Positions 7,604-36,236 of a stretch of DNA of 44,900 nucleotides are shown piece after piece. This stretch comes from an uncultured Myxococcales bacterium (GTDB lineage: Bacteria; Myxococcota_A; Polyangia; Palsa-1104; JAEUJZ01), in NCBI GenBank assembly GCA_937868485.1, contig CALMML010000098.1, positions 1 to 44,900 on the forward strand, read 5' to 3'. A program made the position numbers and the translations under genes. Within the stretch, counting starts at the first letter, position 1; each line of letters opens with the position of its first letter. The notes under the pieces were generated by a model. That model was not told the origin of the DNA. It searched no databases and saw only the letters and a program-made list of their open reading frames with translations.

Positions 7604-7627
7604 CGACCTGTACGTCCGCATGGGAAG

Positions 7628-8626
7628 ATGCTCAGGATGCAGCTTCCCCCCGCAACCTTCCTTCTGTCCTTTCTTCGCGCACTCAAGATCACAGCGACCG
7701 GACGACTGACCAAAGGGCCACGGCTCCCCAGCTGGTCGCCCCTGTTTGAGCTGTGTGTCGAAGCGCTGCGCGTAAACTCCGAGAGCCTGAGCGCGCTGTC
7801 CATCCAAGCCGCCCGCGCGAGCTGGGATCGCAGCTCCAGCTTCGACCCGGCCATCAAGCAGGTCGTCCGTCAGCCCACCACCATCGCAGGCATCGGCTGC
7901 GAGTGGTTTCGGCCCACCACCAGTGTGCGGAGCGATGCCCAGACGCTGCTGTATCTCCACGGTGGCGGCTACTGCATCGGCTCGACAGACACCCACGCCG
8001 GCCTTATCGCACGGCTCACCCTCGCACACGGCGGCCCGACACTTGGCGTCAACTATCGACTAGCCCCCGAGCACAAGTTCCCCGCCGCACTCGAAGATGC
8101 CCTGGCGGTCTATCGCGGCCTGCTGGGCAGTGGGCAAGCACCGGACCGGCTCATCGTCGGAGGCGACTCCGCAGGTGGCGGACTGACGCTGGCACTGCTG
8201 CTCAAGCTCCGCGAGCTAGGACTGCCCCAGCCACGCGCCGCGCTGCTGCTCTGTCCGTGGGTCGACATCATGGACAGCGAAGGATCGGTTCAGCGCAACG
8301 CGGCCTACGACTGGATGAAGCCTGGTCAGCCGCAGCTCTGGGCGGAGTACTACCTGCCGAGCGGCCACGACGGCAAGGCCCCGCTTGTCTCTCCGCTCTA
8401 CGCCGATCTGACGGGACTGCCACCGCTCATGGTGCAGGTCGGAACCGCCGAGATGCTCTACGACCAGGTCATGCGCTTTGCCCAGCGTGCCCGCGAAGCC
8501 GGAGTGAAGCTGACTCTCGACGAAGCGCAAGACATGATTCACGACTGGCACCTGTTGGCTCCGTTCTTCCCGCACTGCCAAGCCGCCATCGATCGACTGG
8601 CCGCTTTTATGCGCAAGCCGGACTAA
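7628..8626 (+). CDS. Alpha/beta-hydrolase, hormone-sensitive-lipase-type esterase
   Basis: The oxyanion-hole motif YLHGGGYCIGS and the nucleophile motif VGGDSAGGGL define the HSL (family IV) esterases. A charge-relay acid follows in VGTAEMLYDQ and the histidine in MIHDWHL. At 332 residues it is full length. It should hydrolyse short acyl esters of an unknown substrate in the cytoplasm; the N-terminus shows no signal peptide. It starts 24 bp after gdhA and may be co-transcribed. An alternative ATG lies three codons downstream. In this family, related enzymes are acetyl esterases and lactone or carbamate hydrolases. Confidence 0.9.
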   Translation: MLRMQLPPATFLLSFLRALKITATGRLTKGPRLPSWSPLFELCVEALRVNSESLSALSIQAARASWDRSSSFDPAIKQVVRQPTTIAGIGCEWFRPTTSVRSDAQTLLYLHGGGYCIGSTDTHAGLIARLTLAHGGPTLGVNYRLAPEHKFPAALEDALAVYRGLLGSGQAPDRLIVGGDSAGGGLTLALLLKLRELGLPQPRAALLLCPWVDIMDSEGSVQRNAAYDWMKPGQPQLWAEYYLPSGHDGKAPLVSPLYADLTGLPPLMVQVGTAEMLYDQVMRFAQRAREAGVKLTLDEAQDMIHDWHLLAPFFPHCQAAIDRLAAFMRKPD

Positions 8627-8702
8627 CTGCCCGACTGACCGCACGTCCCCCGCCAAAAAGTTCTATACAGCCGCCGACCTGCTGGCATCATCCCGCGCCG
8701 AC

Positions 8703-10322
8703 ATGATCGCGCTGACCAACGTCACCAAGCAGTATGGGGGCCAAATCCTCTTTGTCGATGCATCGTTCCAGATAAACTCCGGCGAGCGCGTCGGACTGGT
8801 CGGGCCCAACGGTGCAGGCAAGACCACCATCTTTCGCCTGATCATGGGCCAAGAGTCGCCCGATGAAGGCTCAGTCGAGCGGCCTCGCAAGCTGACCCTG
8901 GGCTACTTCAACCAAGACATCTCCGGCATGCGTGGACGCAGCGTGCTTGGCGAAGCCGTGGCTGGCGCGGGGGAAGTCGCCCAGCTCGGAGAGGACATGA
9001 AGATCCTCGAAGAGCAGATGGCCCAAGGCTGCGACGATCTCGATGCGGTCGTCGCTCGGTATGGCGAAGTCCAAGCCCGGTTCATGGAGCTGGGCGGCTA
9101 CGATGTCGAAGCCCGCGCCCACACCATCTTGGCCGGACTCGGCATTTCCGCTGAGCAGATCGCAGCCGATGTCGGCAACCTGTCCGGCGGATGGAAGATG
9201 CGCGTCGCGCTCGCCAAGATCCTGCTGCTCAAGCCCGATGTGCTCCTCCTCGACGAACCGACCAACTACCTCGATATCGAGTCGATCCTGTGGCTAGAGG
9301 AGTTTCTCCGCTCGTATCCCGGCGCGGTGGTCATGACCAGCCACGATCGCGACGTCATGAACCGCGTCGTCAAAAAGATCATCGAGATCGATGGCGGTCA
9401 GGTCCGCAGCTACACCGGCAACTACGACTTCTACGAGCAGATGCGCGCCCAAGAAGCCGTTCGCCGCGAAGCCGAGTACGAGCGTCAGCAAGCCATGCTC
9501 GCCAAAGAGATTCGCTTCATCGAGCGCTTCCGCGCCCAAGCCGCCAAGGCTGCGCAGGTCCAGAGCCGCGTCAAAAAGCTCGACAAGATTGAGCGACTGG
9601 AGCCACCCCGAAGGCTCATCGAGCGCGAGTTTGACTTCCGCAAGCCCTCGCGATCCGGTGATGACGTCGTCAAGGTCAGCGAGCTGCGCAAGGCCTACGG
9701 TGATCGCGTGGTCCACCAAGGGCTCAGCATGCTGGTCCGTCGCGGTGAGCGCTGGGCCGTCATGGGTGAAAACGGAGCGGGCAAGACCACGCTGCTCAAG
9801 ATGGTCGCGGGTGTGCTCACCCCAGACAGCGGCGAAGTCACCGTCGGCGCGTCCGTCAGCATGGGCTACTTTGCCCAACATCAGATGGAACAGCTCGACG
9901 GAAGCTCGACCGTGATCGAAGAGCTACAGGCCCACGCGCCCACCACCGGCCTTGGCGTGCTGCGCAACCTCGCCGGGGCGTTTGGCTTCCATGGCGACGA
10001 TGTCGAAAAGCCAGTGCGCGTGCTGTCCGGTGGGGAGCGCTCACGGCTGGTGCTGGCCAAGCTGCTGTTTGATGCCCCCAACCTGCTCGTGCTCGACGAA
10101 CCGACCAACCACCTCGACATCGCGACCAAGCGCGCGCTCATGAAAGCGCTCAGCACCTATCAAGGCACCGTGCTGTTTGTATCCCACGACCGCGCCTTCC
10201 TACGTGCCGTCGCCACCCGCATCCTGGAGCTGACCGCAAAAGGACCGCACATCTATAACGGCAGCTACAGCGAGTACGTTGCCACGACGGGTCGCGAAGC
10301 CCCCGGCATGCGGGTCAGCTAG
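8703..10322 (+). CDS. ABC-F family ATPase (translation-associated, YbiT/EttA-like)
   Basis: Two nucleotide-binding domains sit on one chain without membrane segments. The first has Walker A GPNGAGKTT and signature LSGGWKMR, then LLLDEPTNYLD. The second has GENGAGKTT, LSGGERSR and LVLDEPTNHLD. Between them is the charged helical interdomain linker (residues about 240-300, ERFRAQAAKAAQVQSRVKKL) that reaches the ribosomal P-site tRNA in ABC-F proteins. The length, 539 residues, fits YbiT. Members resolve stalled ribosomes or protect them from antibiotics; which of these applies is unknown. It converges on the DUF3604 gene with only 7 bp between. Confidence 0.93.
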   Translation: MIALTNVTKQYGGQILFVDASFQINSGERVGLVGPNGAGKTTIFRLIMGQESPDEGSVERPRKLTLGYFNQDISGMRGRSVLGEAVAGAGEVAQLGEDMKILEEQMAQGCDDLDAVVARYGEVQARFMELGGYDVEARAHTILAGLGISAEQIAADVGNLSGGWKMRVALAKILLLKPDVLLLDEPTNYLDIESILWLEEFLRSYPGAVVMTSHDRDVMNRVVKKIIEIDGGQVRSYTGNYDFYEQMRAQEAVRREAEYERQQAMLAKEIRFIERFRAQAAKAAQVQSRVKKLDKIERLEPPRRLIEREFDFRKPSRSGDDVVKVSELRKAYGDRVVHQGLSMLVRRGERWAVMGENGAGKTTLLKMVAGVLTPDSGEVTVGASVSMGYFAQHQMEQLDGSSTVIEELQAHAPTTGLGVLRNLAGAFGFHGDDVEKPVRVLSGGERSRLVLAKLLFDAPNLLVLDEPTNHLDIATKRALMKALSTYQGTVLFVSHDRAFLRAVATRILELTAKGPHIYNGSYSEYVATTGREAPGMRVS

Positions 10323-10329
10323 CTTCGGC

Positions 10330-12270
10330 CTACGAGCCGGGGATGTAGTAGATCGGCGACGCCCAGGCCCGCTCTTGGATCGTCCTTGGCACATCTGGAT
10401 CGCTACAGGGAGCCGGTCGCGACCCCACTGGCAGCGCGTTACACAGGTAGCTGTTCCAGCGGCAGCTTGGGTTTTCCAGCACCCGCACGTAGTAAAACGC
10501 CGGCTGGCTCGGGTCAAACGAAGGGTCCGTCCACGTCCCGCACAGGCTGTCGGCCCCTTCCCCACTGCGCACACACGTAGCGACATCCACCGACGCACCG
10601 TTTTTCCGGTCCCCGGCCACGTCAAACACCATCGTCTGCGCCACCCCGCCCACCAGCGTGCCCTTTACGATCTGCACCACTTGCAGCGGCGTGCCTCGCT
10701 GCGCCCCCTCGCCCGGATCGCGAAACGCCTGCACCACAAAGCGCGGCGCTTTGCCGCTGGGCACAGACAGCGTCCCACCCATGGGAACCCCAAGCTGATA
10801 GGCCTTTTCCACCAGGCTTGGGTCGCTGCACAGACCGCTCGGCAGGTCAGCGCCGCCAAAGAAGCGCACCGTGATGCGCGGCCCGCTCGTCCCGAACGTC
10901 TCTCGCCGCTTCATCGCGTCAAACAGCGCCGGTCGCGAGTTCTCCTCCGCCCATACGCCCACAAGTCCACCGGGCGAAAACTCCATCCCGCCAATCGTGA
11001 TCCCACCTGGACCCAGCTGCTTGTCCGGCGTGTCATCGTCGAGACCGCGATGGCCGACAAAGCGCGACTCGTCCACATAGCCAGGGCTGCCGTTGTGGGT
11101 GTCGGTGCTGGCAATCAGACCAAGCTGTAGCGGGTTTACCCCCAGGCGCTGCTGCTCTTTGAGCCCCTCGGCCAGTGCATTGCGCACAAAGTCCCGCCGC
11201 GACACGCAGCCCGTTCGCGCCACGCCAGAGCTGCCCGTCCCTTCGCCGCAGTCTGGCACCGTCTTGCGCAGCGTCTTTTCAAACCCGCACTGCTCATCCG
11301 GTGCCCCCAGCACACCCGACAGACCATTGCGGCACTCCGAATCCCCCTTGTGCTGATAGATCTCGAACAGCGGCTCCATGCTCCGCCGCAGCTCCGCCAG
11401 CTTGCGCTGCTCATCGAGGCTCGCTCCCTCGGGATACTCGATGCGGAACATCTTGCCGTTGCTCTCGTTCGAGTTGTGCGGAATCGCCAGCACATCACAG
11501 CCCGTCCGCGCATGCCGACACGCCGCATCCAGCGCCTGCCACAGCCCCTGCGGCGTTGGCTCTTCGTAGTTTGTCACCGGCAGCGGAACCCGGTCGTTGC
11601 GGAAGATCACGTTGCGATGCATCGTCGACAGAGCCGGTGCGCTGGAATACTCGTAGGCGACGAAGCTGGTGAAGCGACAGCTTGCGCTCTTGTCGTAGGC
11701 ACTTCGCGCCGCCGCCTGAAGCCGACTCCAGGTTGCCGACATCAGCTCCGCACAGCCGCTGCCATCGGGTGGACAGATGTCCTCGAACCGCTGCCGATTG
11801 TCGAGCGCGAGCTGAAAGCCCAGGTTGGTGATCGCGCTGTTGCCGCCCTGGCGATAGCGCTGACAGGTCAGCGAGCCGTAGCCCTGCGCACTCGGTGTGA
11901 TGCACGCCTGCACTTCCCCCAAAAACTCGGAGTGATCCGTCACCGCCGCAAAGTCGAGCGGCCTACCCAGCCGAATCTTGCGCGTCCCCTGCCCCATCGC
12001 ATCGAGCGGCGGCAGCCCGATCTCTTCCCCTTGCGCGAAGCGATAGGCCTGCTCAGGCGTCACCCGTACGTCGAACGCATAGGCATCAAACGACAGGCTG
12101 GTATGAACATGCAGATCCCCAAAGTACGCCTGCCGCAGCGGGCTGTGCGCGGCGCACGGATCGCGCGGCTCGACATACACCACGTCCGGCTCCGCAAGCG
12201 GCTCCGCACAGGACGCCGCAAGCAGGCCCACCGGCAAAAGAAGCAGTCGCAACGAGCAGTGTCTCGACAT
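10330..12270 (-). CDS. DUF3604 lipoprotein (PHP-like putative metallohydrolase)
   Basis: The signal peptide ends LLAASC, a lipobox. The metal-site pattern of PHP-like hydrolases follows: FGDLHVHTSLSFDA near residue 50, FAAVTDHSEFLGEV near 107, IPHNSNE in the middle, and TDTHNGSPGY later. These are the hallmarks of the DUF3604 family, about 600-700 residues and of unknown substrate. Many Cys pairs in the region suggest an oxidising extracytoplasmic location. It is the third gene of a tight operon with a HupE/UreJ-type membrane protein 3 bp upstream and a parvulin isomerase before that. I recall this trio co-occurring in other Proteobacteria, but its role is unknown to me. Confidence 0.85.
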   Translation of the reverse strand: MSRHCSLRLLLLPVGLLAASCAEPLAEPDVVYVEPRDPCAAHSPLRQAYFGDLHVHTSLSFDAYAFDVRVTPEQAYRFAQGEEIGLPPLDAMGQGTRKIRLGRPLDFAAVTDHSEFLGEVQACITPSAQGYGSLTCQRYRQGGNSAITNLGFQLALDNRQRFEDICPPDGSGCAELMSATWSRLQAAARSAYDKSASCRFTSFVAYEYSSAPALSTMHRNVIFRNDRVPLPVTNYEEPTPQGLWQALDAACRHARTGCDVLAIPHNSNESNGKMFRIEYPEGASLDEQRKLAELRRSMEPLFEIYQHKGDSECRNGLSGVLGAPDEQCGFEKTLRKTVPDCGEGTGSSGVARTGCVSRRDFVRNALAEGLKEQQRLGVNPLQLGLIASTDTHNGSPGYVDESRFVGHRGLDDDTPDKQLGPGGITIGGMEFSPGGLVGVWAEENSRPALFDAMKRRETFGTSGPRITVRFFGGADLPSGLCSDPSLVEKAYQLGVPMGGTLSVPSGKAPRFVVQAFRDPGEGAQRGTPLQVVQIVKGTLVGGVAQTMVFDVAGDRKNGASVDVATCVRSGEGADSLCGTWTDPSFDPSQPAFYYVRVLENPSCRWNSYLCNALPVGSRPAPCSDPDVPRTIQERAWASPIYYIPGS

Positions 12271-23112: not shown

Positions 23113-23160
23113 TGCGCAAAGTCGCACACCTGTCATCCGCTTTTGCATGATGATCGGGCG

Positions 23161-24027
23161 ATGCAGTGGGATCTCCTTCGGACGTTTGAAGCGGTGACGC
23201 GCCTGGGAAGCCTGACGGCTGCGGCCCGCGCCTTGGGTGTCAGCCAGTCGACGATCAGTCGGCAGCTTGGCAAGCTGGAAGAGCGGGCGGGATCGCCACT
23301 GCTGCTGCGAGAGGCCCCGCTGCGGCTGACCGAAAAGGGGGAAGCACTGCTCGGGGCGGTGCGGCCCATGGTCGATGCGGCGCTGGCCGTCCAGGCGGCA
23401 CTGGATGACACCCCACAGCTACACGGCGAAGTGACCCTAGCGACCGTGGGAGAACTGCTGCGCTGGGTGTTGGCCCCGGCACTGCCCTCGTTTTATGCGG
23501 CCTATCCGAGCCTGCGCCTGCGCATCCTGGCGGACAACCGGACAAGCAGCCTGGCGGCAGGCGAAGCGGACCTGGCGCTGCGGGTGTTTCGTCCAGAGCG
23601 TGGAGAGCTGATCGGGCAAAAGCTCCACAGCGAGTCGTACGGGCTCTATGTCGCGTCCAAGCTGCCGCTGCATCCCGAGGTGCCGTGGCTGGGTCTGTGC
23701 GGCTCCCTGGCCCTGATTCCAGAGCAGCGCTATGCCGAGCGAGCCTTCGCGCACCGTCCGGCCCGGCTGCTGCTGGAAGACATCGAGTCGCTGGCCCTGG
23801 CGGTCACGCAGGGTCTAGGGGTCGCCGTGCTGCCGCAAGGGCTGGCTGGTAAGCAAGCAGGCCTTGTGCAGGTATCGCCCAGTCAAGTCGGCGCGGTGGA
23901 CCTGGGGCCGATACCCAGCCGAGACTTCTGGCTGGTGGTGCATCACAGCAAGCAGCGGCTGCCGAAAGTGCGCGCTGTGATGGCGTGGCTGCGCAGCATC
24001 CGCACGCTCTGCACGCTCGGCGACTGA
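23161..24027 (+). CDS. LysR-family transcriptional regulator
   Basis: The N-terminal winged helix begins QWDLLRTFEAVTRLGSLTAA and continues ARALGVSQSTISRQLGKLEE, the standard LysR pattern. An effector-binding domain with two lobes follows (GEVTLATVGELLRWVLAPAL onward). Its length of 288 residues is normal. An in-frame TTG six codons upstream is less likely. It diverges from the UlaG-like hydrolase and lies 102 bp ahead of the EutB-EutC fusion, so it could control either or both. The inducer is unknown; ethanolamine or a lipid-derived amine would be a reasonable guess from context. Confidence 0.93.
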   Translation: MQWDLLRTFEAVTRLGSLTAAARALGVSQSTISRQLGKLEERAGSPLLLREAPLRLTEKGEALLGAVRPMVDAALAVQAALDDTPQLHGEVTLATVGELLRWVLAPALPSFYAAYPSLRLRILADNRTSSLAAGEADLALRVFRPERGELIGQKLHSESYGLYVASKLPLHPEVPWLGLCGSLALIPEQRYAERAFAHRPARLLLEDIESLALAVTQGLGVAVLPQGLAGKQAGLVQVSPSQVGAVDLGPIPSRDFWLVVHHSKQRLPKVRAVMAWLRSIRTLCTLGD

Positions 24028-24070: not shown

Positions 24071-24123
24071 TTTGGGGGTTCGTTCAATGTTTGGATAATT
24101 GACCAACCTTTGACTGCAAGGAG
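24071..24123 (+). promoter_or_regulatory. AT-rich promoter region and ribosome-binding site of the EutB-EutC fusion
   Basis: The gap is markedly AT-richer than its surroundings. GATAAT (24094-24099) could serve as -10 with TTGGGG (24072-24077) as a weak -35 at 16 bp. TTTGG and CCAAC flank the -10 as a short inverted repeat around ATAATTGA, a possible LysR half-site arrangement. AAGGAG at 24118-24123 is a strong ribosome-binding site seven bases before the ATG. Confidence 0.4.
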
Positions 24124-24129
24124 TCTCCG

Positions 24130-26454
24130 ATGAAGAGCGCGTCTTGGTTCAGTCTCCGTCGCCGTTCGTTTCTGGCCGCGATGCTGGGAGGAGCCGCCAC
24201 CGCAGCGCTACCGTCCTGTAGCAAGTCCGAAAATCCCCCACCGGGCGTGTTCATTCCCAACGTCTACGCCGAAGAGGATGTCTTTGGGTACATGACCCGG
24301 ACGGTGGGCCGCTTCGATGAAGCGCTCTATCGGCAGCTGATCGGTGCCGCCAACGACTACAAAGAAGGCGACCAAGCGATTGGCGTAGCGGCAGCGGATG
24401 AAGGCTCGCGACGCAATGCGCGCCACCTGCTTGCCAACACCAAGGTCATGGACCTGACCGCCCGCCCGCTGCTGGCCGATCAGCAAGGCACGCTGATCAG
24501 CCAGACCACGGACCCTGCGGCACGACGGATCAGCGCGGGCTGGACGCTCGGCTTTCTGAAGTCCTACCTGCTCGGGGCCAGCGAAGACTACATCCGACAG
24601 ATCATGGTCGGCCTGCACAGCGATGTCATTGGCTGCTTGGTCAAGCTGATGACCAACGCAGAGCTTGTCGCGCTGTCGCAGAAGATCTGGAACCCGCTGC
24701 CCGGCAGCAAGGTCGGCAGTCGCGGCTACATGGGCGCACGGATTCAGCCGAACTCACCCACCGACAACGTAGACGACATCAAGTGGCAGGTGTTTGACGG
24801 CTTCTCGTATGCAGTCGGCGACGTGGTGCTGGGCTGTAACCCGGTGTCCTCAGAGGTCGAGTCGGTCGGCAGCATCGAGCGGATGCTCTATGACCTGCTG
24901 GAGACCTTCGGGCTGCTTGAGGTGCTGCCGCACTGCGTCCTTGCGCACATCGACGTGCAAGCCGAGGTCGAGAGCAAGTATCCCGACCGCACCGGCATCT
25001 GGTTCCAGAGCATCGCGGGGACGGACGGAGCCAATGGCACCTTCGATGTGTCGGTCGAAAAGATGCTGAAGTACGCCGACCAGCGCACCGGCAGATACGG
25101 CCTGTATTTTGAAACCGGCCAGGGCGCGGACTTCACCAACGGTCAGGACTTCGGCGTCGACATGGTGGTCCTGGAGTCGCGCAAGTACGGCTTTGCCCGT
25201 GCGCTGTCTCAGCGTGTCGCCGATGCGCAGCGCAAAGCCGGAAAGCCAGTGGCTCCGTGGGTTCACGTAAACGATGTCGCGGGCTTTATCGGCCCGGAGG
25301 TCTTCCGCTTCCGCGATCAGCTTGTCCGCTGCTGCCTGGAAGACATCGTCATGGGCAAGCTGCACGGGCTGACGATTGGTCTGGATGTCTGCTCGACGCT
25401 GCACATGGACGTGTCGCTCGACGACCTGGACTACTGCCTGGACCAGATCATGCCCGCCAATCCGGCGTATCTGATGGGGCTGCCGACCAAGAATGACCCG
25501 ATGCTGGGCTACTTGACGACGGCCTTTCAGGACCATGTCCGCATCCGCGACAAGTTTGGGCTCAAGGTCGATGACCGGATGTGGGCGTTCTTTCAGCAGC
25601 TCGGCGTGATCGACAGCACGGGCAAGCCCACCGACAAGTTTGGCGACCCTCGCTGGGTGTACTTGCAGTACCTGCGACGCAAGGGCGACAAGCGCACCGA
25701 AGCGGTGATCTACGCCGAAGCGGACCAGAAGATGAAAGAAGTGAGGGATCGCGGCGTGTGGCTGGCCCAAGGCTACGGAAAAGCGCCGTGGAACCTAGAA
25801 GCCAAGCTCGATGCCGAGATTCGCGCGCTGTACGAAGACTCTCGCAAGGCCATCTGGACGGAGTTTACCGATTCATTTGTGGCGTCGGTACCGATGGTCG
25901 AGCCGCTCCGAACCCAGTCGCTCGATCGCAAGGACTACGTCTGGCATCCGGTGAGTGGGGAGACGCTCGATGAAGGGTCAAAGAGCGCGGTGGCTGCGAT
26001 GCGAATGCGGCACGGGGAAAAGTACAACGTGCAGATTGTGATCTCAGACGGCCTGTGCTCGCCTGCGCTGTCGGACATGAACCACCTTCAGCCGTACCTG
26101 GAGTCGCTGCGCAGTGAGCTGACCAGCCAGGGCTACAAGGTGTCGCCTGACCATGCGCTGCTGCGCAGCGGGCGGGTGCGGGCTGGCTATCACCTGGGCG
26201 AGCTGCTCTATGCGGGTCGAAGCAACCCAGCGGCAACCGTGGCCATCATTCATCTCATTGGTGAGCGTCCAGGCTCGGGGCATCACGCCTTTTCGGCGTA
26301 CATCACCGCACCGGCAGTCAGCGTCTGGTCCAAGCCCGGCACGGTCGATCACAACATCACGCGGGTGATCTCGGGGATTGCCGATACGGCGTACGATCCG
26401 CGTGGTGCAGGCATCGAGACGGTGAAGATCCTCAAGAACATCGCCCCGCCATAA
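24130..26454 (+). CDS. EutB-EutC fusion ethanolamine ammonia-lyase with Tat-type export signal
   Basis: Residues about 45-515 align with EutB, the large subunit of adenosylcobalamin-dependent ethanolamine ammonia-lyase (ethanolamine to acetaldehyde plus ammonia). Residues about 570-774 align with EutC. Active-site residues known from the E. coli enzyme appear kept: R204 and Q206 (ARIQPN), N237 (GCNPV), E328 (YFETGQG) and D419 (GLDV). The EutC cobalamin loop is present as GERPGSG (711-717). The two subunits are normally separate genes. The N-terminus, SLRRRSFLAAMLGGAATAAL then PSC, is a twin-arginine signal, possibly a lipoprotein one although Pro is odd at -2. No EutA reactivase, EutT or microcompartment genes are near. 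A LysR gene lies upstream. Confidence 0.9.
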   Translation: MKSASWFSLRRRSFLAAMLGGAATAALPSCSKSENPPPGVFIPNVYAEEDVFGYMTRTVGRFDEALYRQLIGAANDYKEGDQAIGVAAADEGSRRNARHLLANTKVMDLTARPLLADQQGTLISQTTDPAARRISAGWTLGFLKSYLLGASEDYIRQIMVGLHSDVIGCLVKLMTNAELVALSQKIWNPLPGSKVGSRGYMGARIQPNSPTDNVDDIKWQVFDGFSYAVGDVVLGCNPVSSEVESVGSIERMLYDLLETFGLLEVLPHCVLAHIDVQAEVESKYPDRTGIWFQSIAGTDGANGTFDVSVEKMLKYADQRTGRYGLYFETGQGADFTNGQDFGVDMVVLESRKYGFARALSQRVADAQRKAGKPVAPWVHVNDVAGFIGPEVFRFRDQLVRCCLEDIVMGKLHGLTIGLDVCSTLHMDVSLDDLDYCLDQIMPANPAYLMGLPTKNDPMLGYLTTAFQDHVRIRDKFGLKVDDRMWAFFQQLGVIDSTGKPTDKFGDPRWVYLQYLRRKGDKRTEAVIYAEADQKMKEVRDRGVWLAQGYGKAPWNLEAKLDAEIRALYEDSRKAIWTEFTDSFVASVPMVEPLRTQSLDRKDYVWHPVSGETLDEGSKSAVAAMRMRHGEKYNVQIVISDGLCSPALSDMNHLQPYLESLRSELTSQGYKVSPDHALLRSGRVRAGYHLGELLYAGRSNPAATVAIIHLIGERPGSGHHAFSAYITAPAVSVWSKPGTVDHNITRVISGIADTAYDPRGAGIETVKILKNIAPP

Positions 26455-26476: not shown

Positions 26477-27367
26477 TCAGTCGTTACACAGCGCCTGACC
26501 CGTGTCCCAGCGTCCGGTTGGGGTATCGGGCACAAACTCCCACTCATACGAGCCATCGCGCAGCGCAAAGCGGATCACGCCAAAGGTGCTGTCGATGCGG
26601 ACTTCACTGTTTGGCTGGGGCGCGGCGAAGGAATACGGGCTGGCACCGCCAGTGCCGACCACGAACTCGCGGATGCCGTGGCGAGGGTCGGGGGCTGCGT
26701 CAAAGGCCTGCGGTGCAAAGCGCTCGTAGCCGTGATCGTGACCCGACAGGACAACGTCGGCCCCAAACTCCTGCAAGGTGCGCCACAGGTCGGCCATCTT
26801 GGGGTCGTTGCCATGGGCAGAGGAGCTGGAAAACACAGGATGATGCCAGTAGGCCAGCGTGCAGCGCTTGTCGCGGTGGCTGGCGAGGTCGGCGCGTAGC
26901 CACTGTTCCTGGGCAGAGCCAAACGCGGCGTCGATGTTGCTGTTGAGTGAGACGATGTGCCAGCTCCCCAGGTCGTAGGAGTAGTAGCCACGACGGTCTG
27001 GCCCCGCGCGATCACCGAAATAGGTAAAGTAGCCCTCCGCGTCGGGGGTCACGTACTCGTGGTTGCCAGGGGATGGATAGGTGCGGATCCGAAACGCGCC
27101 CCAGGTCGGGTCGTAGCAGCCCTGGTATTCATCCAGAGAGCCACTGCTGTACGCATTGTCCCCGAGGGTAAAGACCGCCGCATCGGGAGTTCGCGCAACC
27201 AGGGCCGCAGTCCGAGCCGCCGTACTGTCAGACGCGGGAAGCGCGCCGCAGATGGCGATATCCCCGGCGCCGACCAGCGTCACGGTCGACAGCATGCCAC
27301 TGGTGTTTGTTTGGGAGCAGCCAAAGAGCCCGCACAGGACAAGCCAAGCGATGGGACGTGTAGACAT
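26477..27367 (-). CDS. Secreted calcineurin-like metallophosphoesterase (lipoprotein)
   Basis: A GGAGG-type site precedes the ATG. The signal peptide ends in GLFGC, a lipobox. The five metallophosphoesterase motifs follow in order: GAGDIAICG, FTLGDNAYSSG, SPGNHEYVTP, YWHHPVFS and LSGHDHGYER. The pattern and size (296 residues) fit the small purple-acid-phosphatase/alkaline phosphatase-like branch found on bacterial surfaces. It should hydrolyse phosphate esters outside the inner membrane with a bimetal centre. It converges on the EutB-EutC gene with a 22-bp gap, and I see no terminator there. Confidence 0.92.
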   Translation of the reverse strand: MSTRPIAWLVLCGLFGCSQTNTSGMLSTVTLVGAGDIAICGALPASDSTAARTAALVARTPDAAVFTLGDNAYSSGSLDEYQGCYDPTWGAFRIRTYPSPGNHEYVTPDAEGYFTYFGDRAGPDRRGYYSYDLGSWHIVSLNSNIDAAFGSAQEQWLRADLASHRDKRCTLAYWHHPVFSSSSAHGNDPKMADLWRTLQEFGADVVLSGHDHGYERFAPQAFDAAPDPRHGIREFVVGTGGASPYSFAAPQPNSEVRIDSTFGVIRFALRDGSYEWEFVPDTPTGRWDTGQALCND

Positions 27368-27431: not shown

Positions 27432-28844
27432 TTACCAGCCGCTAAACAGCTTCTTCGCCCCCGAGGCCAGGTTGCCAATCGCCTTCCCTGCGCCGCTAGC
27501 CATGTTACCAACGGTCTTGGCTGCGCCCTTGGCAAACTGACCGACTGGGCTGTCTCCGACGGCTTTGACGGCGCTGCCGATGGCCCCACCGACCGACGAA
27601 ACTGCGCTCGTGGCAAACTCACCGATCTTTTTGGCACCGCCATCTTTGAGCCAGTGCGCCGCGCCCGAGACGAGATCACCGCCAAGGCCGATGAGACCAG
27701 CGCCCGGAATCGGCAGACCACCGGCAATGTTGGTGAGGGTGTGAAAGCCTTCGATCACCGCACCGCCGATGTCGCCCTTCTTGAAAGACTGGTAGGCGGA
27801 CTTGCCGCTCTCGAAGGCCGACAGCGCAGCGGTGGCCATGTTGAGGCCCGGCAGGATCTTGCCCGCGTACTTGCCGACGATCTTGGACCCACCCGCGACG
27901 GCTTCTTTTTCGAGCAGGTTGCCGAGCGGACCCGCGAGCAGCTTCTCGCCACCCTTTTCCAAAAAGCCATGCAGGGGCTTGAGGACCGAGCCAGCCTTTT
28001 CGGCGATCATCGATTCCTTCAGCACACCGCCCGACAGCTTTTCGATCATGCCCGCGCCGGGAACGCCTTCGGTGATGACCTTGCCGATGGTGTTGGTGAT
28101 GTTCGAAAACTTCTCCGGCAGCGAAATCAGGCTCTTGAGTCCACCAACGCCGGTCTTGGCCATGCCTACGGCCTTGTCGACGCCGTCTTTTTCCTCTTCT
28201 TTGCCGTGACCGCCTTCGCCGCCTTGGCCCTCTTTGCCGTCTTTGTCCTTGTCGCCGCCAAACAGCTCCTTCATCGCTTTGAGGCCGCCTTCGCCGACCT
28301 TTTCAAAGTCCTTGAAGGAAGTCTTGCCGTGCATCAGGTCCCAGGCTCCCTTGGCACCACCAAACAGGCCCTTGCCGACGCTGAACGCCTTGGCGAGTGG
28401 CGAGATGCCCTTGCCTAGCTCTTTGCCGCCCGCAAGCAGATGCGACAGCATGCCTTTTTCGCCACCGATGAAGTCCTGCGCGCCGTGCATCAGGCCGCCG
28501 CCGATGTGGCCCAGTCCATCCATCAGCCCGTGACCGATGTCTGACCCGGCGTGCATCATGCCATTCATGGCACCACCGGCGAGGTCTCCCAGTGCCGCAC
28601 CAAAGTGACCGTGGCTGGCGTCCTCCCATGCGTGGTGCGCGCCATCGGCGACATCGTGGGCTGCGTCCATCACGCCATGCCCGACTCCGCTGGCCATATC
28701 GCCTGCGCCATGAGCAAACCCGCCCATGACGTCGCCCGCACCGTGCATGAGCCCACCGAAGTGACTGCCTGCGGCTTGACCCAGCTCACCCATGCCACCC
28801 ATCAGATGACCTGGCGCGTCCCCCAGAGAAGATACGAACGACAT
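27432..28844 (-). CDS. Gly/His-rich protein of 11-residue repeats, unknown function
   Basis: I do not recognise a family. The protein has no signal peptide, no cysteine and about one Gly in five residues. Residues 30-128 fall into nine consecutive 11-residue units without a gap (for example GGLMHGAGDVM, GGFAHGAGDMA, SGVGHGVMDAA, LMHGAQDFIGG), rich in His and Asp. Residues 414-468 form five more (QFAKGAAKTVG, NMASGAGKAIG, NLASGAKKLFS), rich in Lys. Between them are a charged Lys/Glu/Asp/Gly hinge near 195-220 and amphipathic segments. Eleven-residue periodicity is known from membrane-surface helices such as synuclein, perilipin and LEA proteins. A coat, protectant or membrane-active role is inference. 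It is monocistronic with an inverted repeat upstream. Confidence 0.75.
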   Translation of the reverse strand: MSFVSSLGDAPGHLMGGMGELGQAAGSHFGGLMHGAGDVMGGFAHGAGDMASGVGHGVMDAAHDVADGAHHAWEDASHGHFGAALGDLAGGAMNGMMHAGSDIGHGLMDGLGHIGGGLMHGAQDFIGGEKGMLSHLLAGGKELGKGISPLAKAFSVGKGLFGGAKGAWDLMHGKTSFKDFEKVGEGGLKAMKELFGGDKDKDGKEGQGGEGGHGKEEEKDGVDKAVGMAKTGVGGLKSLISLPEKFSNITNTIGKVITEGVPGAGMIEKLSGGVLKESMIAEKAGSVLKPLHGFLEKGGEKLLAGPLGNLLEKEAVAGGSKIVGKYAGKILPGLNMATAALSAFESGKSAYQSFKKGDIGGAVIEGFHTLTNIAGGLPIPGAGLIGLGGDLVSGAAHWLKDGGAKKIGEFATSAVSSVGGAIGSAVKAVGDSPVGQFAKGAAKTVGNMASGAGKAIGNLASGAKKLFSGW

Positions 28845-29949: not shown

Positions 29950-32520
29950 GTGAGTAGAACCCCAGAGCGGCAAGGGGAGGCGCCGGGCGGTGGCAGTTCC
30001 GGTGACTCATCGCCAGGCTCAACGATGTCGTTGCGCCAAGGTGGTTCCGTGCCGTCTGATAGCGGAGAACTTGGACGTCCCGGCTCGCCATCGGGAAGCG
30101 GTAAGAACCAAGCGATTTCGTCACGAGAGCAAGATCAGCGCTCCAAAGAAACGAGTGACGAAAAAGACCCACGCATCGGGCAGCGCTTCGGCAAGTACCG
30201 ACTGACTCGTCTGATTGGGCTCGGCGGAATGGCGCAGGTCTATGAGGCGGAAGACACGCTGCTCAACCGCCGCGTCGCCGTAAAGTTCCTGACGGAATCC
30301 CGTCGTCAGCAGTCCACCGCAGTCGAGCGCTTCATCAACGAAGCGCAGGTCGCTGGACGCCTCAATCACCCCAACATCATCGCGATCTACGACATCGGCT
30401 TCGAGCACGATACCTATTACATCGCGATGGAGCTGCTGAACCCTGGCTCGGCAGGCTCGTTCATCAAGCAAAAGGGGCGCATGACCTGGGTGGAAGCAGC
30501 CCAGACCATCATGCAGTGCTGCAGCGCGCTAGACGCAGCGCACAAGGCCGGGATCATCCACCGGGACATCAAGCCCGACAACATCCTGTGCTCTCCGGCA
30601 GGAACCGCCAAGCTGGCCGACTTCGGGCTGGTCAAAGAGCTACACATCGAGGACAACGCCGGGCTCACGCAGTCCGGTGTGGTGGTCGGTACGCCCCTGT
30701 TTATGAGCCCCGAGCAGTGCACCGCGCAGCCACTCGATCCGCGCAGTGACATCTACTCGCTGGGCTGTACGTTCTATGCGCTGCTCACCGGGAGCCCACC
30801 GTTTCCGACAGGAAGCGTGCCGCAGATCATGCTCCAGCACTGCAAGAGCAAGGTGCCTGATCCGCGTGTGCTGGCCCCGGATGTCCCCGATTCAATCGTG
30901 CGGGTGGTCGAGCGGGCCACCAGCAAGCGTCCCGAGGAGCGCTATCAAACGGCAGCCGAGATGCAAGTCGCGCTAACTGCTGCGCTCGATGAGGCACCTC
31001 GACCGACGTTCGAGTTTCTTGTGCTGGGCGCAGCGTCGCGACCCGGATCACGTCAGCGTGGCAACGGTGCAGCCCGGCTCCGCAGCGAAAGCGGACCGCG
31101 CAGCCCAGACTCGCAAGGCAGTCCCGGTGGCAATCGACTGACGGAAGGCGCACCGACACCGAACCAGCAGACCTCGATGCCAGATGCGCCGACGCCGAGC
31201 AACATGTCGCGTCGTGCCGCACTGCTCGGTGGTGTGGGTCTGCTGGCGGCGGCAAGTGGCATCGCCTTTTGGCGTCTGCGCGGTGGTCATCCGATTGACG
31301 GAACCAACACCAGCGCGGGCAATCAGCTGGCGAATAAAGAGCCGCTGTTCGTCGGTGTGCTGAACTCGCTTTCGGGACCGCTGTTCGATAGTGGTCGTCC
31401 GGTCATCGACGCAACACTGCTGGCCATCGAAGAGCTAAACAGCCGTGGCGGCGTGCTGGGCAGACCGATTGAAGCCATCGTCGCAGACGGAAAAAGCGAC
31501 AACGCGACCTTCGCCAAAGAGGCCGAGCGGCTGCTGGTCGAAAAGAAGGTCGTCACGATCTTCGGAGGCTGGTCTCCGTCGAACCGGCGCACGCTCAAAA
31601 AGGTCATCGAGAAGTACAAAAACCTGCTGATGTTCCCGGCCCGCGACGAGGGCATGGAGGACTCGGAGTACATCATCTACTGCGGCAGCACGCCCAATCA
31701 GGTGGTGACTCCATCGATTCGCTACTTCATTGAGCAGGGGCTGCTGCGACGGCTGTTCGTGATCGGTACGGACGGACTGTCGTCGAACATCTCGGCCCAG
31801 CTGATTCGCGATGAGCTAAAGGCATTCCCGCAGGTGAGCGTGGTCGGCGAGCACTTCGCGCTGCTCGGTGAGACAGGATTTAAGAAGGCGATCGAGAAGA
31901 TCCGCGACAGCAAGCCCGATCTGATCTTCAACTTCATGATCGGCGTGTCGAATCCGGCGTTCTTCCGAGAGCTGCGCGCAGCGGGCATCACCGCGAAACA
32001 CACACCGACGGCCTCGTTCGCCGTTGGTGAGCCGGAGCTTCAGCAGACCGCCGACCTCGACATGGTGGGCGAGTACCTGGCAGCGAGTCACTTTCACTCG
32101 CTCAAGACGCCGCAGAACGAAGAGTTCGTGAAAAACATCCGTCGCAAGTACGGAGACTATCGCGTCACCGGATCGGCGATGGAAGCGGCCTATGCGAGTG
32201 TCTACTTGTGGGCACAAGCGGTCCAAGCGGCGGGCACCGACGAGGTTGCGCGCATTCGCGAGCGGCTGGCCGGTCAGACGTTTGAAGCGCCCGGCGGCAA
32301 GATTCGCGTCGATCCGGGCAATCACCACTGCTACAAGCCGTTCTATCTGGGTCGGATCTCTGACGTGGGCACCGTCGAGCTGGTCAAGAGCATCACCGAT
32401 CCCATCCGACCCGAGCCGTTCCCCGCCACCCGCACCCGCGCCGAGTGGGAAGCGCTCGTCGAATACCTCTCGAAGAGCTGGGGCGGATCGTTTGTAAACC
32501 CTGGCAAGCCCAGTCCGTAA
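29950..32520 (+). CDS. Transmembrane Ser/Thr kinase fused to urea/amide-type substrate-binding sensor
   Basis: Domain order: a low-complexity Gly/Ser-rich leader (1-75); a Hanks-type kinase at about 83-346 with glycine loop LIGLGGMAQVYE, Lys112, catalytic HRDIKPDN (Asp206), DFG at 224-226 and GTPLFMSPEQ; a Pro/Ser linker; one membrane helix at about 422-440; and an extracytoplasmic UrtA/AmiC-like periplasmic-binding domain (465-840, starting FVGVLNSLSGPLFDSG). The last is the ABC-transporter substrate-binding fold for urea or short amides. The helix is preceded by SRRAALLGG, a twin-arginine-like relic. The protein should phosphorylate cytoplasmic targets on ligand binding outside. The GTG start is weakly supported; ATG 30025 is possible. 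Confidence 0.92.
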   Translation: MSRTPERQGEAPGGGSSGDSSPGSTMSLRQGGSVPSDSGELGRPGSPSGSGKNQAISSREQDQRSKETSDEKDPRIGQRFGKYRLTRLIGLGGMAQVYEAEDTLLNRRVAVKFLTESRRQQSTAVERFINEAQVAGRLNHPNIIAIYDIGFEHDTYYIAMELLNPGSAGSFIKQKGRMTWVEAAQTIMQCCSALDAAHKAGIIHRDIKPDNILCSPAGTAKLADFGLVKELHIEDNAGLTQSGVVVGTPLFMSPEQCTAQPLDPRSDIYSLGCTFYALLTGSPPFPTGSVPQIMLQHCKSKVPDPRVLAPDVPDSIVRVVERATSKRPEERYQTAAEMQVALTAALDEAPRPTFEFLVLGAASRPGSRQRGNGAARLRSESGPRSPDSQGSPGGNRLTEGAPTPNQQTSMPDAPTPSNMSRRAALLGGVGLLAAASGIAFWRLRGGHPIDGTNTSAGNQLANKEPLFVGVLNSLSGPLFDSGRPVIDATLLAIEELNSRGGVLGRPIEAIVADGKSDNATFAKEAERLLVEKKVVTIFGGWSPSNRRTLKKVIEKYKNLLMFPARDEGMEDSEYIIYCGSTPNQVVTPSIRYFIEQGLLRRLFVIGTDGLSSNISAQLIRDELKAFPQVSVVGEHFALLGETGFKKAIEKIRDSKPDLIFNFMIGVSNPAFFRELRAAGITAKHTPTASFAVGEPELQQTADLDMVGEYLAASHFHSLKTPQNEEFVKNIRRKYGDYRVTGSAMEAAYASVYLWAQAVQAAGTDEVARIRERLAGQTFEAPGGKIRVDPGNHHCYKPFYLGRISDVGTVELVKSITDPIRPEPFPATRTRAEWEALVEYLSKSWGGSFVNPGKPSP

Positions 32521-32555: not shown

Positions 32556-35500
32556 TCAGGGACAGAAGGTCGCGACCGTGCGGAAGTCCGGCTGATAGCG
32601 CAGCAGGTTGCACGCATCGGTGAGCGTTCCCGACAAGTTGCTGCGATAGTCGTCGGGATAGACCAAGGTCTTGCCATCCGCCGTGCTGAGCAGGAAGTAG
32701 CGTCCGTCGGGCGCCGCAAAGTTCGTATCGGACAGCTCAAACGGCAGGCTGGGCCAGCGCATCAGCGGCATCTCGGCGGCCATGTCCCACAGCAGCAGCG
32801 AGTTGTCGGTTCCCACCACCAGCAAGTGATCGCCGCTTGGGGACAGCACCGCCATCTGCACCGGGCTCGGCAGCGTCAACAGCACCTTCTGCTGGCCGGT
32901 TTCAAGGTCCCAGGTACTGACCACGCGCTCGGCGGTGGTAATGAGGCTCTGACCTTGCGGCGTCTGCAAGAACACAGCGGAGCTAACGACCTGACCGCCA
33001 CTTGGTAGCGTTCGCCGCACCGCCAGCGTGTAGCCATCGCGAATCACCGTCTCGCCTTCCGAGCCCGCCGTCACCAGCAGCTTTCCGTCGGGCGAAAACA
33101 TCGCTTGCACCAGGTTGCCGTGATGTCCGCCTTCACTTCGCAGAAGCTGACCCGTCGAAGGGTTCCACAGGCGCAGCGTCTCATCGAGCCCACCACTTAG
33201 CAGGCGCTGACCATCGGGCGAAAACGTCACGATCTGCACCGAGCCCTTGTGCCCACGCAAAGGAGGCAGCAGCAGCCGTCCCGAGCGCCCGTCCCACAGT
33301 CGCACGGTGCCATCAGAGCTTGCCGTCGCCATGCGCGTTCCATCAGCCGAAAAGACCACGCTGTTGACGACGTGATCATGACCGACCAGCGTCGCAACCG
33401 GCTCGCCACTTGGCCACTTCCACAGCTTGGCGGTGTGATCGTGGCTGGCGGTCGCAATGTGGGTTCCGTCGGGCGAAAACGCCGAAGCCGAGATGTAGCG
33501 ACTGTGACCCGGCAAGACCAGCAGCGGCTGACCGGATCGGACATCCCAAATGCGCGCCGTTCGATCATGGCTCACGGTGGCCACCTTGCCGCCTTTGGGT
33601 GCCACTGCGACGCCGTAGATCGGTCCCGAGTGGCCGCGCAGGACGGCGATCTCCATCTTGCTGCCCACGTCCCAGAGCCGAACGATGCGATCGTGACCGG
33701 CGGTGACCAAGTACTTGCCGTCGCTCGTGAAGCTGAGCGCATCGACCACGCCGACGTGACCATAGAGCGTGCCGCGTAGCTCTCCCGAGCGTCCGTCCCA
33801 CAGCTTCACCACACCATCGGCGCCCGCGCTGGCCACCAGTCCTCCGTCGGGCGAAAACTGAAGGGAGTGCAGCGGTGTTCCTTGGGACAGCTCCAGCCCT
33901 TGTTCCGGGATCGGCTGCGATGGATCCAGCGGCCACAGACGCACGGTGCCATCCCAGCTTCCCGTCGCTGCGCGCTGACCATCCGACGAAACGGCAACCA
34001 AGTTTACGCGATGGCGATGACCGTGAAAGGTCTTCAGACAGCTTCCCGACGCAACGTCCCACAGCCGCACGGTCTGGTCGAAGCTGCCCGAGACAACCTG
34101 CTTTCCCGACGGAATGAAGACCGCCATGGGAACGCGCTCCAGATGACCGCTGAGCACACGCAGCTCAAGTCCCGTCGCTGCATCCCAGATCCGAATCGAG
34201 TGATCCTGCCCCGCCGTGACGATGCGATCGCCGCTCTGGGAAAACGCGCCCATCTCGATCGGTTCAGAGTGACCACGCATCGTGGCCTTTAGCTCGCCGG
34301 TTTCGACTTCCCACAAGCGTCCGAGTCCGTCGGTGCTCGCCGAAAACACGCGCCGCCCATCGGGAGAAAACACCGCAGCCGTCAGCAGTCCTGCGTGGCC
34401 AGTCAGCGCCCGCAGCGGTCGTCCCGTTCGCGCGTTCCACAGTCGCGCCGTCTGATCCTGGCTGCCGGTCAGCACCAGCTCACCCGTCGGATCGAACGAA
34501 ACCAGCTCGACCCGATCGCTGTGCCCATGCAGCGGCAGCGAGTTCTTCGCCGTCCCATAGGTCAGCATCAGTCCTTCTTTGGCCTCGGGCGGAACGGGCC
34601 GCGCACTACGCAAAGAAGGTGCCGTCGCCGAGATCGCCAGCGCCAGCGCCGCACCGTCTTGGCCTGGCTGCTGCACCAGCAGCGCCGCACGCGCACCCTG
34701 CTCTGCTGCGATCGCATCATCATGTCGCGCGGATAGAAGCGTCTGCCGCTGTCGCTCCGCCAAGAGTCCCAGCGTCAGCACCAGCAGCGACGCCACAATC
34801 GCCCACGGAACCCAGCGACGACGAACAGGCTGCTGCGTCACCGGAACCTGCGGTCGTCGGCTCTGCGCCTGCGCACTCGCCTTGATGAGCCGCGCCACCT
34901 TTAGGTCTATCTGCGACGGACGCTCAGACAGCCAGCGCTCTGCTTCGGCGAGCTTATAACCAGCAAGCTGCGCATGAGGCTGGCTCAGCGACACACCGCC
35001 TAAGCTGCTCAGCCCCGACAGGCTGCTGCCTTCGCGCTGAAGCGAGCCAAGCAGCTCCGCATGCCACTGCTCAAAGCGTCGCTCTTCGTCGGGCCAACGT
35101 CCAAGCTCAGGCCAGACCGACAGCAGGATCGGATGCATCAGCTCGACGACATCGCTGCCTGGTGTCTCGCGAATCAGCTCCGCCGCCACCAGTCGACTGA
35201 GCGCTTCGACATCGCTCGCCGACGCAGGATCATCGCCTCGATCGGGGGAAATCAGCGTCAGCAGCTCACTTCGTCGCCGGGGACGAGAAAACAGCACCTC
35301 GCCTTCGCTCAAGGTCTGACGATGCAACAGCGACAGCAGGGCCCGACGCTGATGAAGCTGAAGCGCGGGCGGCTGACTGCGCCAGCTTGCTTCGACGGTA
35401 TCGGGCAGCGAGCGAAGAAGTCCGCCCGACGACTGATAGTCATCCAGAGACAGCACGCGCGGCGTCGGACCAAGCCGAGCCACATGAAGCGTCCGACGCA

Positions 35501-36236
35501 GCATCGAAACGAGCAGTGGCAACACCGCCGCCGAGCGCTGTCCCGACGCAACCGACACTGCGTACGCATCCAGGTCTTTCCCGAGCGCAGCCAGCATCGA
35601 CTCTTCCACCCGCAGACCTGCTTGGCGCGCCGGGCTCCTCACGATCTCGGTCCACTCGCTCACGTCGAGCAGCGGAGCAAGCCACAGCGTCTGCCGACCG
35701 AGCAGCCCGAGCAGCCCCTTGGCCACCACCGCCAGCGCCGACAGCGCATCCGAGTGAGCCACCAGCACGATCTGCAGCGGTGCACCGTCGTCGATCGCCT
35801 TCCCGAGCGCTTCCAGCTGCGCCACCAGGTTTTGCCGACTGTACGGCTCCGCAAACAGCAGCTCTTCCAGGTGATCGCAGATCAGTACGACCTTGCGCCC
35901 AGTCTTGGCCACCGACAGCAAAGACAGCACCAAGTCATCCGACGCCGATCGCAGTCCTTGGGTCGCCAGCTCCGCAAACGGATCCAGCCCCGGGTGCGAG
36001 ATACAAAACACCGCCACGCCGTCCTGAAGCTCGCGACGAAGCTGATGCCACAGACCCGCACGCACAAGCGACGACTTGCCCGTCCCACACGCGCCCAGCA
36101 CCGACACGATGCGATGCGCATCTAGGAGCTGTCGCAGCCGCTCTACTTTGCGTAAGCGACCACAGAAGCGAGCCTCATCCTCGGGCCCGAGCGGAGCCAG
36201 CGTTGGATAAGGAGATGCATCACTTAGCGGCACCAT
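32556..36236 (-). CDS. STAND-type NTPase with transmembrane helix and double WD40 propeller
   Basis: The start SPYPTLAPLGPEDEARFCGR matches the entry motif of the nSTAND1 group. Walker A GACGTGKSS (48-56) and Walker B VVLICDHLEELL (about 115-126) follow, then a helical STAND region. One membrane helix (IVASLLVLTLGLL, near 478) separates this from about 650 residues of WD40 repeats. I count 14 clear units plus a weaker fifteenth, such as LTGHAGLLTAAVFSPDGRRV ending RLWEV, enough for two seven-bladed propellers. STAND proteins are ligand-gated signalling or conflict switches. No effector domain is seen at the N-terminus. The start lies 17 bp inside dapF. It converges on the kinase gene. Confidence 0.9.
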   Translation of the reverse strand: MVPLSDASPYPTLAPLGPEDEARFCGRLRKVERLRQLLDAHRIVSVLGACGTGKSSLVRAGLWHQLRRELQDGVAVFCISHPGLDPFAELATQGLRSASDDLVLSLLSVAKTGRKVVLICDHLEELLFAEPYSRQNLVAQLEALGKAIDDGAPLQIVLVAHSDALSALAVVAKGLLGLLGRQTLWLAPLLDVSEWTEIVRSPARQAGLRVEESMLAALGKDLDAYAVSVASGQRSAAVLPLLVSMLRRTLHVARLGPTPRVLSLDDYQSSGGLLRSLPDTVEASWRSQPPALQLHQRRALLSLLHRQTLSEGEVLFSRPRRRSELLTLISPDRGDDPASASDVEALSRLVAAELIRETPGSDVVELMHPILLSVWPELGRWPDEERRFEQWHAELLGSLQREGSSLSGLSSLGGVSLSQPHAQLAGYKLAEAERWLSERPSQIDLKVARLIKASAQAQSRRPQVPVTQQPVRRRWVPWAIVASLLVLTLGLLAERQRQTLLSARHDDAIAAEQGARAALLVQQPGQDGAALALAISATAPSLRSARPVPPEAKEGLMLTYGTAKNSLPLHGHSDRVELVSFDPTGELVLTGSQDQTARLWNARTGRPLRALTGHAGLLTAAVFSPDGRRVFSASTDGLGRLWEVETGELKATMRGHSEPIEMGAFSQSGDRIVTAGQDHSIRIWDAATGLELRVLSGHLERVPMAVFIPSGKQVVSGSFDQTVRLWDVASGSCLKTFHGHRHRVNLVAVSSDGQRAATGSWDGTVRLWPLDPSQPIPEQGLELSQGTPLHSLQFSPDGGLVASAGADGVVKLWDGRSGELRGTLYGHVGVVDALSFTSDGKYLVTAGHDRIVRLWDVGSKMEIAVLRGHSGPIYGVAVAPKGGKVATVSHDRTARIWDVRSGQPLLVLPGHSRYISASAFSPDGTHIATASHDHTAKLWKWPSGEPVATLVGHDHVVNSVVFSADGTRMATASSDGTVRLWDGRSGRLLLPPLRGHKGSVQIVTFSPDGQRLLSGGLDETLRLWNPSTGQLLRSEGGHHGNLVQAMFSPDGKLLVTAGSEGETVIRDGYTLAVRRTLPSGGQVVSSAVFLQTPQGQSLITTAERVVSTWDLETGQQKVLLTLPSPVQMAVLSPSGDHLLVVGTDNSLLLWDMAAEMPLMRWPSLPFELSDTNFAAPDGRYFLLSTADGKTLVYPDDYRSNLSGTLTDACNLLRYQPDFRTVATFCP

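Follow-up and report, generated by a model that had tools for sequence, protein, structure and literature searches.

The window, by which we mean the whole 44,900-nucleotide stretch analysed here, carries on its forward strand a gene for a single-chain ethanolamine ammonia-lyase (EAL), in which the large-subunit (EutB) and small-subunit (EutC) domains are joined and preceded by a predicted export signal. The features of the locus are listed by position, strand and the evidence for each.

23143–24027, + strand: LysR-family regulator (Pfam HTH_1 and LysR_substrate), directly upstream of the EAL gene and in the same direction
24089–24107, no strand: imperfect inverted repeat GTTTGG-ATAATTG-ACCAAC in the gap between the LysR and EAL genes (read from the sequence)
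24118–24123, + strand: Shine–Dalgarno sequence AAGGAG, 6 nt 5' of the ATG, identical in the sister-genus locus L001
24130–26454, + strand: single-chain EutB-EutC EAL gene, 774 aa (open reading frame; Pfam EutB and EutC)
24130–24216, + strand: predicted Tat signal peptide, residues 1–29, MKSASWFSLRRRSFLAAMLGGAATAALPS (conservation of RR, codon changes, rule test)
24217–24219, + strand: lipobox cysteine Cys30, predicted lipidation site (aligned-column comparison)
24220–24264, + strand: proline-rich tether SKSENPPPGVFIPNV (read from the sequence; PPPGVYIP-like in relatives)
24331–25635, + strand: EutB domain, residues 68–502 (Pfam, active-site alignment, fold match)
24739–24741 (R204), 24745–24747 (Q206), 24838–24840 (N237), 25111–25113 (E328) and 25384–25386 (D419), + strand: active-site codons
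25636–25812, + strand: inter-domain linker, residues 503–561, largely helical in the AlphaFold2 model
25813–26442, + strand: EutC domain, residues 562–771, with SDGL (639–642), R682 and GERPG (711–715)
26477–27367, − strand: calcineurin-like phosphoesterase whose start is of the lipoprotein type; the gene converges on the EAL gene and was matched only in the sister genus

A first-pass annotation of this DNA had read the gene as one 774-residue chain with both EutB and EutC regions, and profile searches agreed. Pfam placed EutB at residues 68–502 (E = 6e-133) and EutC at residues 562–771 (E = 9e-28; 97.6 bits against a cut-off of 25.8). With the NCBIfam models, the EutB half passed its cut-off (588.8 versus 554 bits) and the EutC half stayed below that of the EutC equivalog model (70.8 versus 230 bits); by these scores we take the EutC domain to be genuine, though divergent. 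In the PDB, a 37-homologue profile matched EutB chains (E = 9e-85, 1e-81) as well as EutC chains (E = 3e-14 to 5e-14). An AlphaFold2 model built from the same 37 sequences had a mean pLDDT of 86.2 and a pTM of 0.85, with residues 1–35 at low confidence. Foldseek matched this model to E. coli EutB (3abo_A; TM 0.86) and EutC (3abo_D; 0.75, both by target length), and diol dehydratases were the next-best matches.

We examined the active site in an alignment of E. coli EutB, 12 classical myxobacterial EutB and 45 fused proteins. R204, Q206, N237, E328 and D419, previously proposed as the counterparts of the E. coli active-site residues, align with E. coli R160, Q162, N193, E287 and D362. All five are invariant in the 12 classical proteins and, together with S247 and F329 (E. 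coli numbering), in 45 of 45 fused homologues. The same residues are kept in five of five rhizobial fused proteins, and the catalytic residues are conserved alike in members with and without an export signal. In the E. coli structures, these residues are assigned to substrate binding. R160 is called critical in the title of a work cited in PMC10440813.

The EutC half retains SDGL, R206 and the GERPG loop that had been noted earlier, the last of which is invariant. Overall it keeps 22 of the 40 positions that are invariant in classical EutC; the other 18 are replaced, including R136 (by His), R141 (by Glu), D211 (by Tyr) and R256 (by Thr), as well as N261. The substitutes at these named positions are fixed or nearly fixed across the fused family. 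Replacement of residues that are otherwise invariant suggests that cofactor binding or assembly may differ, through an altered cofactor pocket or oligomeric state, and is the main reason why we do not equate this protein with the E. coli enzyme.

The classical two-subunit enzyme of E. coli (PDB 3abo) nonetheless shares with EAL both domains, their folds, the active-site residues and the GERPG loop. EAL differs in being one chain, with about 32–34% identity over EutB, a divergent EutC and an export signal; no EutA was found for it, and no microcompartment genes lie nearby. The EutB-EutC fusion is not new, because it has been published for Pelobacter carbinolicus, whose EutBC1 and EutBC2 also join the large and small subunits in one chain, in a genome described as being without eutA (PMC3543383). 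The lack of EutA is thus not peculiar to the exported form. The first-pass annotation had taken a two-gene enzyme in need of EutA as the norm; this precedent shows that a fusion without EutA is not unique to EAL. Compared by description only, the P. carbinolicus genes differ in lying within a cobalamin-biosynthesis cluster, and the available part of that description mentions no export signal (PMC3543383). A second fused EutB-EutC family (genomes G294, G339, G369, G371 and G185; loci L081 about 7390–11072, + strand; L085; and L082 8393–10501, + strand) is also single-chain, but it has about 30–33% identity to EAL, forms a separate deep branch and has an EutC nearer to the classical one. In G294, G339, G369 and G371 it directly follows a true eutA.

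Residues 1–30 of EAL are MKSASWFSLRRRSFLAAMLGGAATAALPSC, and they contain a twin-arginine motif (R10–R12, RRRSFL), an uncharged h-region and a lipobox (L27-P-S-C30, LPSC), as in the initial reading, with homologues backing the predicted targeting. Relative to L001, a copy from the sister genus with 93% identity to EAL, codons 1–40 show 19 changes at third, 3 at first and 0 at second positions (17 synonymous, 3 nonsynonymous). Because changes fall mostly on third positions and never on second ones, these codons appear to be translated and constrained; by this pattern, the N terminus is genuinely coding.

Single-protein signal models were weak on EAL, and the case for an export signal therefore rests on homologues. 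Tat-signal prediction, which had been proposed as a check, came out positive for three relatives, L024 (17.2 bits), L025 (20.5 bits) and L034 (18.9 bits), which passed the cut-off of TIGR01409. It did not for EAL itself: PF10518 stayed below its cut-off (E = 0.3; 11.6 versus 22.7 bits) and TIGR01409 gave no match. Failing curated Tat cut-offs lowers confidence without excluding export; such short models miss many signals. We also applied a rule that asks for RR followed by 13 residues that lack charged and amide side chains and average above 0.9 in hydropathy. This rule picked out 20 of 23 exported-type, 5 of 5 rhizobial and 0 of 23 signal-less proteins. It was satisfied by 0.4% of shuffled sequences (0.04% when the lipobox was added) and by 24 of 349 neighbouring genes, 9 of them with a lipobox. 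The Tat machinery is present in the source genome, with TatC at G000:C497 (E = 8e-62), and TatC was found in 12 of 14 genomes checked.

The fused family, assembled from 40 homologous loci in one genome scan and more from whole-genome searches, has two kinds of N terminus: exported-type (n = 23; Myxococcota and MAGs) and signal-less (n = 23). The start codons of L046, L047 and L049–L051 were chosen among several candidates. RR precedes the hydrophobic stretch in 22 of the 23 exported-type proteins, and a cysteine occupies the lipobox column in 20 of 23, compared with none of the 23 signal-less proteins; no other column divides the two sets cleanly. L022 has the cysteine without RR and is Sec-like, which leaves about 19 true lipoboxes, and L024, L025 and L034 lack the cysteine and resemble ordinary Tat signals. 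Across several Myxococcota families, RR, the h-region and the cysteine are retained while the flanking N-terminal residues vary. Most signal-less proteins begin at about residue 37–40 of EAL; a few have a hydrophilic extension without an RR-hydrophobic stretch. Homologues starting downstream of residue 40, raised beforehand as possible evidence against a signal, were seen only among these separate signal-less paralogues, and the nearest relatives of EAL all bear the signal.

Signal-less fused lyases (L008–L021, L027–L033 and others) come from Myxococcus, Corallococcus, Pyxidicoccus, Archangium, Nannocystis and a planctomycete. They share the architecture and catalytic residues of EAL at about 54–61% identity but have neither the RR-hydrophobic stretch nor the lipobox cysteine. 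The conserved cysteines of the exported form are common to the signal-less forms too, so we see no sign of disulfide adaptation. A phage origin was also rejected; phage records match only EutB alone, at 30–34%. Of 379 Myxococcota genomes, 113 had a match, about nine of these being of EAL's family and most classical. Exported and signal-less copies occur together in G382, G383, G384, G396 and G399, which are Archangium, Myxococcus and Pyxidicoccus species and one Myxococcaceae MAG. The exported copy is the only match in M. vastator (G379), Myxococcus sp. CA023 (G380), M. xanthus AM003 (G381) and a record titled Comamonas (G397). The locus from the record titled Comamonas sp. KCTC 72670 (L040; BNCN01000010.1) lies in a 9-Mb genome and has a gene that shares 88% identity with Myxococcus copies; this record is probably a mislabelled or contaminated assembly.

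In a tree with classical enzymes as the outgroup, the fused family is a single clade set apart by a very long branch. With the signal columns included, the exported set is one clade with a support of 93. Without them it falls on one side of a branch with a support of 45 (1 change, against a shuffled mean of 15.5), and the support is 28 when rhizobia are added. A single gain of the signal, or a single loss, would be enough to explain this, and the tree does not tell the two apart; because support falls to 45 and 28 once the signal columns are removed, we do not claim a single origin for the exported form.

The fused family is also found on 25 plasmids of Sinorhizobium, Ensifer and Pararhizobium in a plasmid collection. 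Copies on the S. meliloti pSymA of many strains are 99–100% identical to each other (Tat-signal fused lyase at L120 11965–14313, + strand). The rhizobial N termini are Tat signals of the type TRRDLLLMAG or SRRDLLVMAG, followed by small-residue stretches, for example ARAA or AAKSA, and they contain no lipobox. The Ensifer canadensis copy (L124 7821–9911) is frame-broken, with an open frame of 697 residues and its EutC end lost. The gene adhP lies a few genes upstream of the lyase in S. meliloti and S. terangae, and as fragments elsewhere; we considered this functional link too weak to lean on. One annotated rhizobial record labels the gene merely 'subunit EutB', a name under which both fusion and signal are easy to overlook. 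The pSymA of the reference strain S. meliloti 1021, in the plasmid collection searched, gave no match to the fused lyase, and studies of strain 1021 would therefore not have revealed it. MetH, MCM and NrdJ were named as the cobamide-using enzymes of S. meliloti in work that used Rm1021 derivatives in growth tests (PMC12013260), a list in keeping with the missing gene. Wild-type S. meliloti synthesises its own cobalamin (PMC12013260).

A genome-wide search for eutA, adenosyltransferase and cobalamin genes, suggested alongside the first reading, returned adenosyltransferase genes but neither EutA nor cobS. The source genome holds a stand-alone classical eutB on contig C399 (L079 9164–10564, + strand), apart from eutC and directly after an AcrB efflux-family gene. 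A stand-alone eutC lies on C474, its matching eutB being on the other contig, and directly downstream of it is a BMC shell-type domain fused to a cobalamin adenosyltransferase (L080 8024–9364, − strand). A fusion of this kind is also present at L083 10164–11534 (+ strand). A second adenosyltransferase, of the PduO type, is encoded on C340 of the source genome. Profile searches did not find EutA in the source genome, where the match was FtsA, or in 22 other homologue genomes, where partial matches of the same kind were the only ones. These matches were mostly short (45–65 residues), and the one examined in full was FtsA. As cobS was found in just 1 of 14 genomes tested, with the source genome among those without it, most of these bacteria, the source included, probably import cobamides and depend on an outside supply; cobS represents one step, and some of the genomes are incomplete.

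Ethanolamine ammonia-lyase is a textbook cytoplasmic or microcompartment enzyme with ATP-dependent cofactor repair. For the EAL gene product we lean towards a different setting, that of a Tat-exported, probably lipid-anchored, single-chain ethanolamine ammonia-lyase that is loaded inside the cell and cleaves ethanolamine outside the cytoplasm. Folding would take place in the cytoplasm, with the cobamide cofactor bound where EutB and EutC meet, and the chain would pass, folded and loaded, through the Tat translocase. The signal would then be cleaved and the chain lipidated at Cys30, leaving the mature protein tethered, either within the periplasm or on the outer membrane. There it would act on ethanolamine released, for instance, from the phosphatidylethanolamine of prey or of the bacterium's own envelope, and the products, ammonia and acetaldehyde, would re-enter the cell. 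Each molecule would stay active until its cofactor is damaged and would be expendable, because no EutA was found and there is no ATP outside the cytoplasm. For EAL, the domain architecture, the conserved active site and export signals and the failure to find EutA are observations, whereas cofactor loading before export, lipidation, location, substrate and product use are inferred. The fusion would allow one signal peptide to carry both enzyme halves, placing the whole active unit behind it, and the signal-less fused relatives indicate that fusion occurs in other settings too. Respiratory reductive dehalogenases, Tat-exported corrinoid enzymes that are presumably cofactor-loaded first, offer an analogy only; they differ from EAL in fold and have no adenosyl radical chemistry.

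Predatory myxobacteria and root-nodule symbiosis plasmids also carry Tat-tagged relatives, and on this basis it is probable that a radical B12 enzyme is at work outside the cytoplasm. The broader proposal is of an extracytoplasmic family of adenosylcobalamin radical enzymes, Tat-exported in loaded form, lipoproteins in myxobacteria and predicted to be free in the periplasm of rhizobia, which would be expendable, undergo no reactivation or re-adenosylation, and turn envelope ethanolamine into ammonia and acetaldehyde; we give it an even chance of being correct. In the literature searched, a scope outside which most subscription papers fell, there was no report of an exported ethanolamine ammonia-lyase, and the Tat-exported form thus appears to be unreported, the fusion alone being known. 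A conserved exported lineage, if true, would move radical B12 chemistry to the periplasm, without ATP, and would make the loading, protection and replacement of such an enzyme directly testable. Export would also offer a reason for the EutB-EutC fusion, with one signal for two halves, and suggests a possible new step in predatory and symbiotic bacteria, the release of ammonia from membrane lipids.

Another reading, which we regard as possible but rather unlikely, retains Tat export and changes the task: the main substrate would be another amino alcohol or an ethanolamine-containing fragment, or the protein would be an extracytoplasmic cobamide binder for B12-salvaging bacteria. The strong alteration of the EutC half at classical-invariant positions would suit such a role, as would the probable need of most of the 14 genomes for outside cobamides, and a reactivase-free radical enzyme outside the cytoplasm seems wasteful. 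However, the ethanolamine-contacting and radical-chemistry residues are fully conserved, whereas their loss would be expected in a protein that only binds cobamides; S. meliloti, moreover, makes its own cobalamin (PMC12013260), yet many strains have the exported copy. We consider it improbable that the N terminus is not a working signal, which would leave the protein cytoplasmic and its RR-hydrophobic stretch a remnant or a membrane-side anchor. The weak scores of single-protein Tat models on EAL and the signal-less members of the same family would agree with this, but the signal elements persist amid changing flanks in several Myxococcota families, rhizobial members again have Tat signals, though no lipobox, and codons 1–40 are constrained. 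We give very little credence to a weapon or signalling device whose surface ammonia and acetaldehyde act on prey or neighbours rather than feeding the cell: its presence in predatory myxobacteria, for which phosphatidylethanolamine is also a chemoattractant (PMC9131029), would fit, but plant-symbiont plasmids carry it too, secretion past the envelope is not predicted and the annotated neighbours include no linked effector or immunity genes.

No conserved gene neighbourhood of the putative exported lyase points to a specific role. A scan of ten neighbouring genes found no eut gene, EutA or shell protein among them, in line with the earlier remark that the window holds no other eut gene; the separate eutB and eutC lie elsewhere in the genome. 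In Myxococcota, we found no gene that adjoins the exported lyase and is common to several genera, and the compared loci contained no conserved neighbour that handles ethanolamine or acetaldehyde. The LysR gene was matched solely in the sister genus among the compared loci, as was the lipoprotein-like phosphoesterase, and we rejected functional linkage through either. It is possible that the LysR-family protein regulates the EAL gene. The inverted repeat in the gap between them, which is perfect in L001 (GTTGGG-ATAATTG-CCCAAC), is a possible candidate for the regulator site. Farther downstream, the window encodes a 470-aa Gly/His/Ala-rich protein with no Pfam match that is 94% conserved in the sister genus (27432–28844, − strand). 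Also encoded is a Ser/Thr protein kinase of 856 aa that has a likely membrane stretch as well as a full periplasmic amide/urea-binding-type domain (29950–32520, + strand; Peripla_BP_5, E = 6e-107), a eukaryotic-like kinase and an UrtA/AmiC-like sensor in a single chain. At 32556–36236 (− strand) lies a 1226-aa nSTAND1 NTPase with WD40 repeats, a type frequent in signalling or defence.
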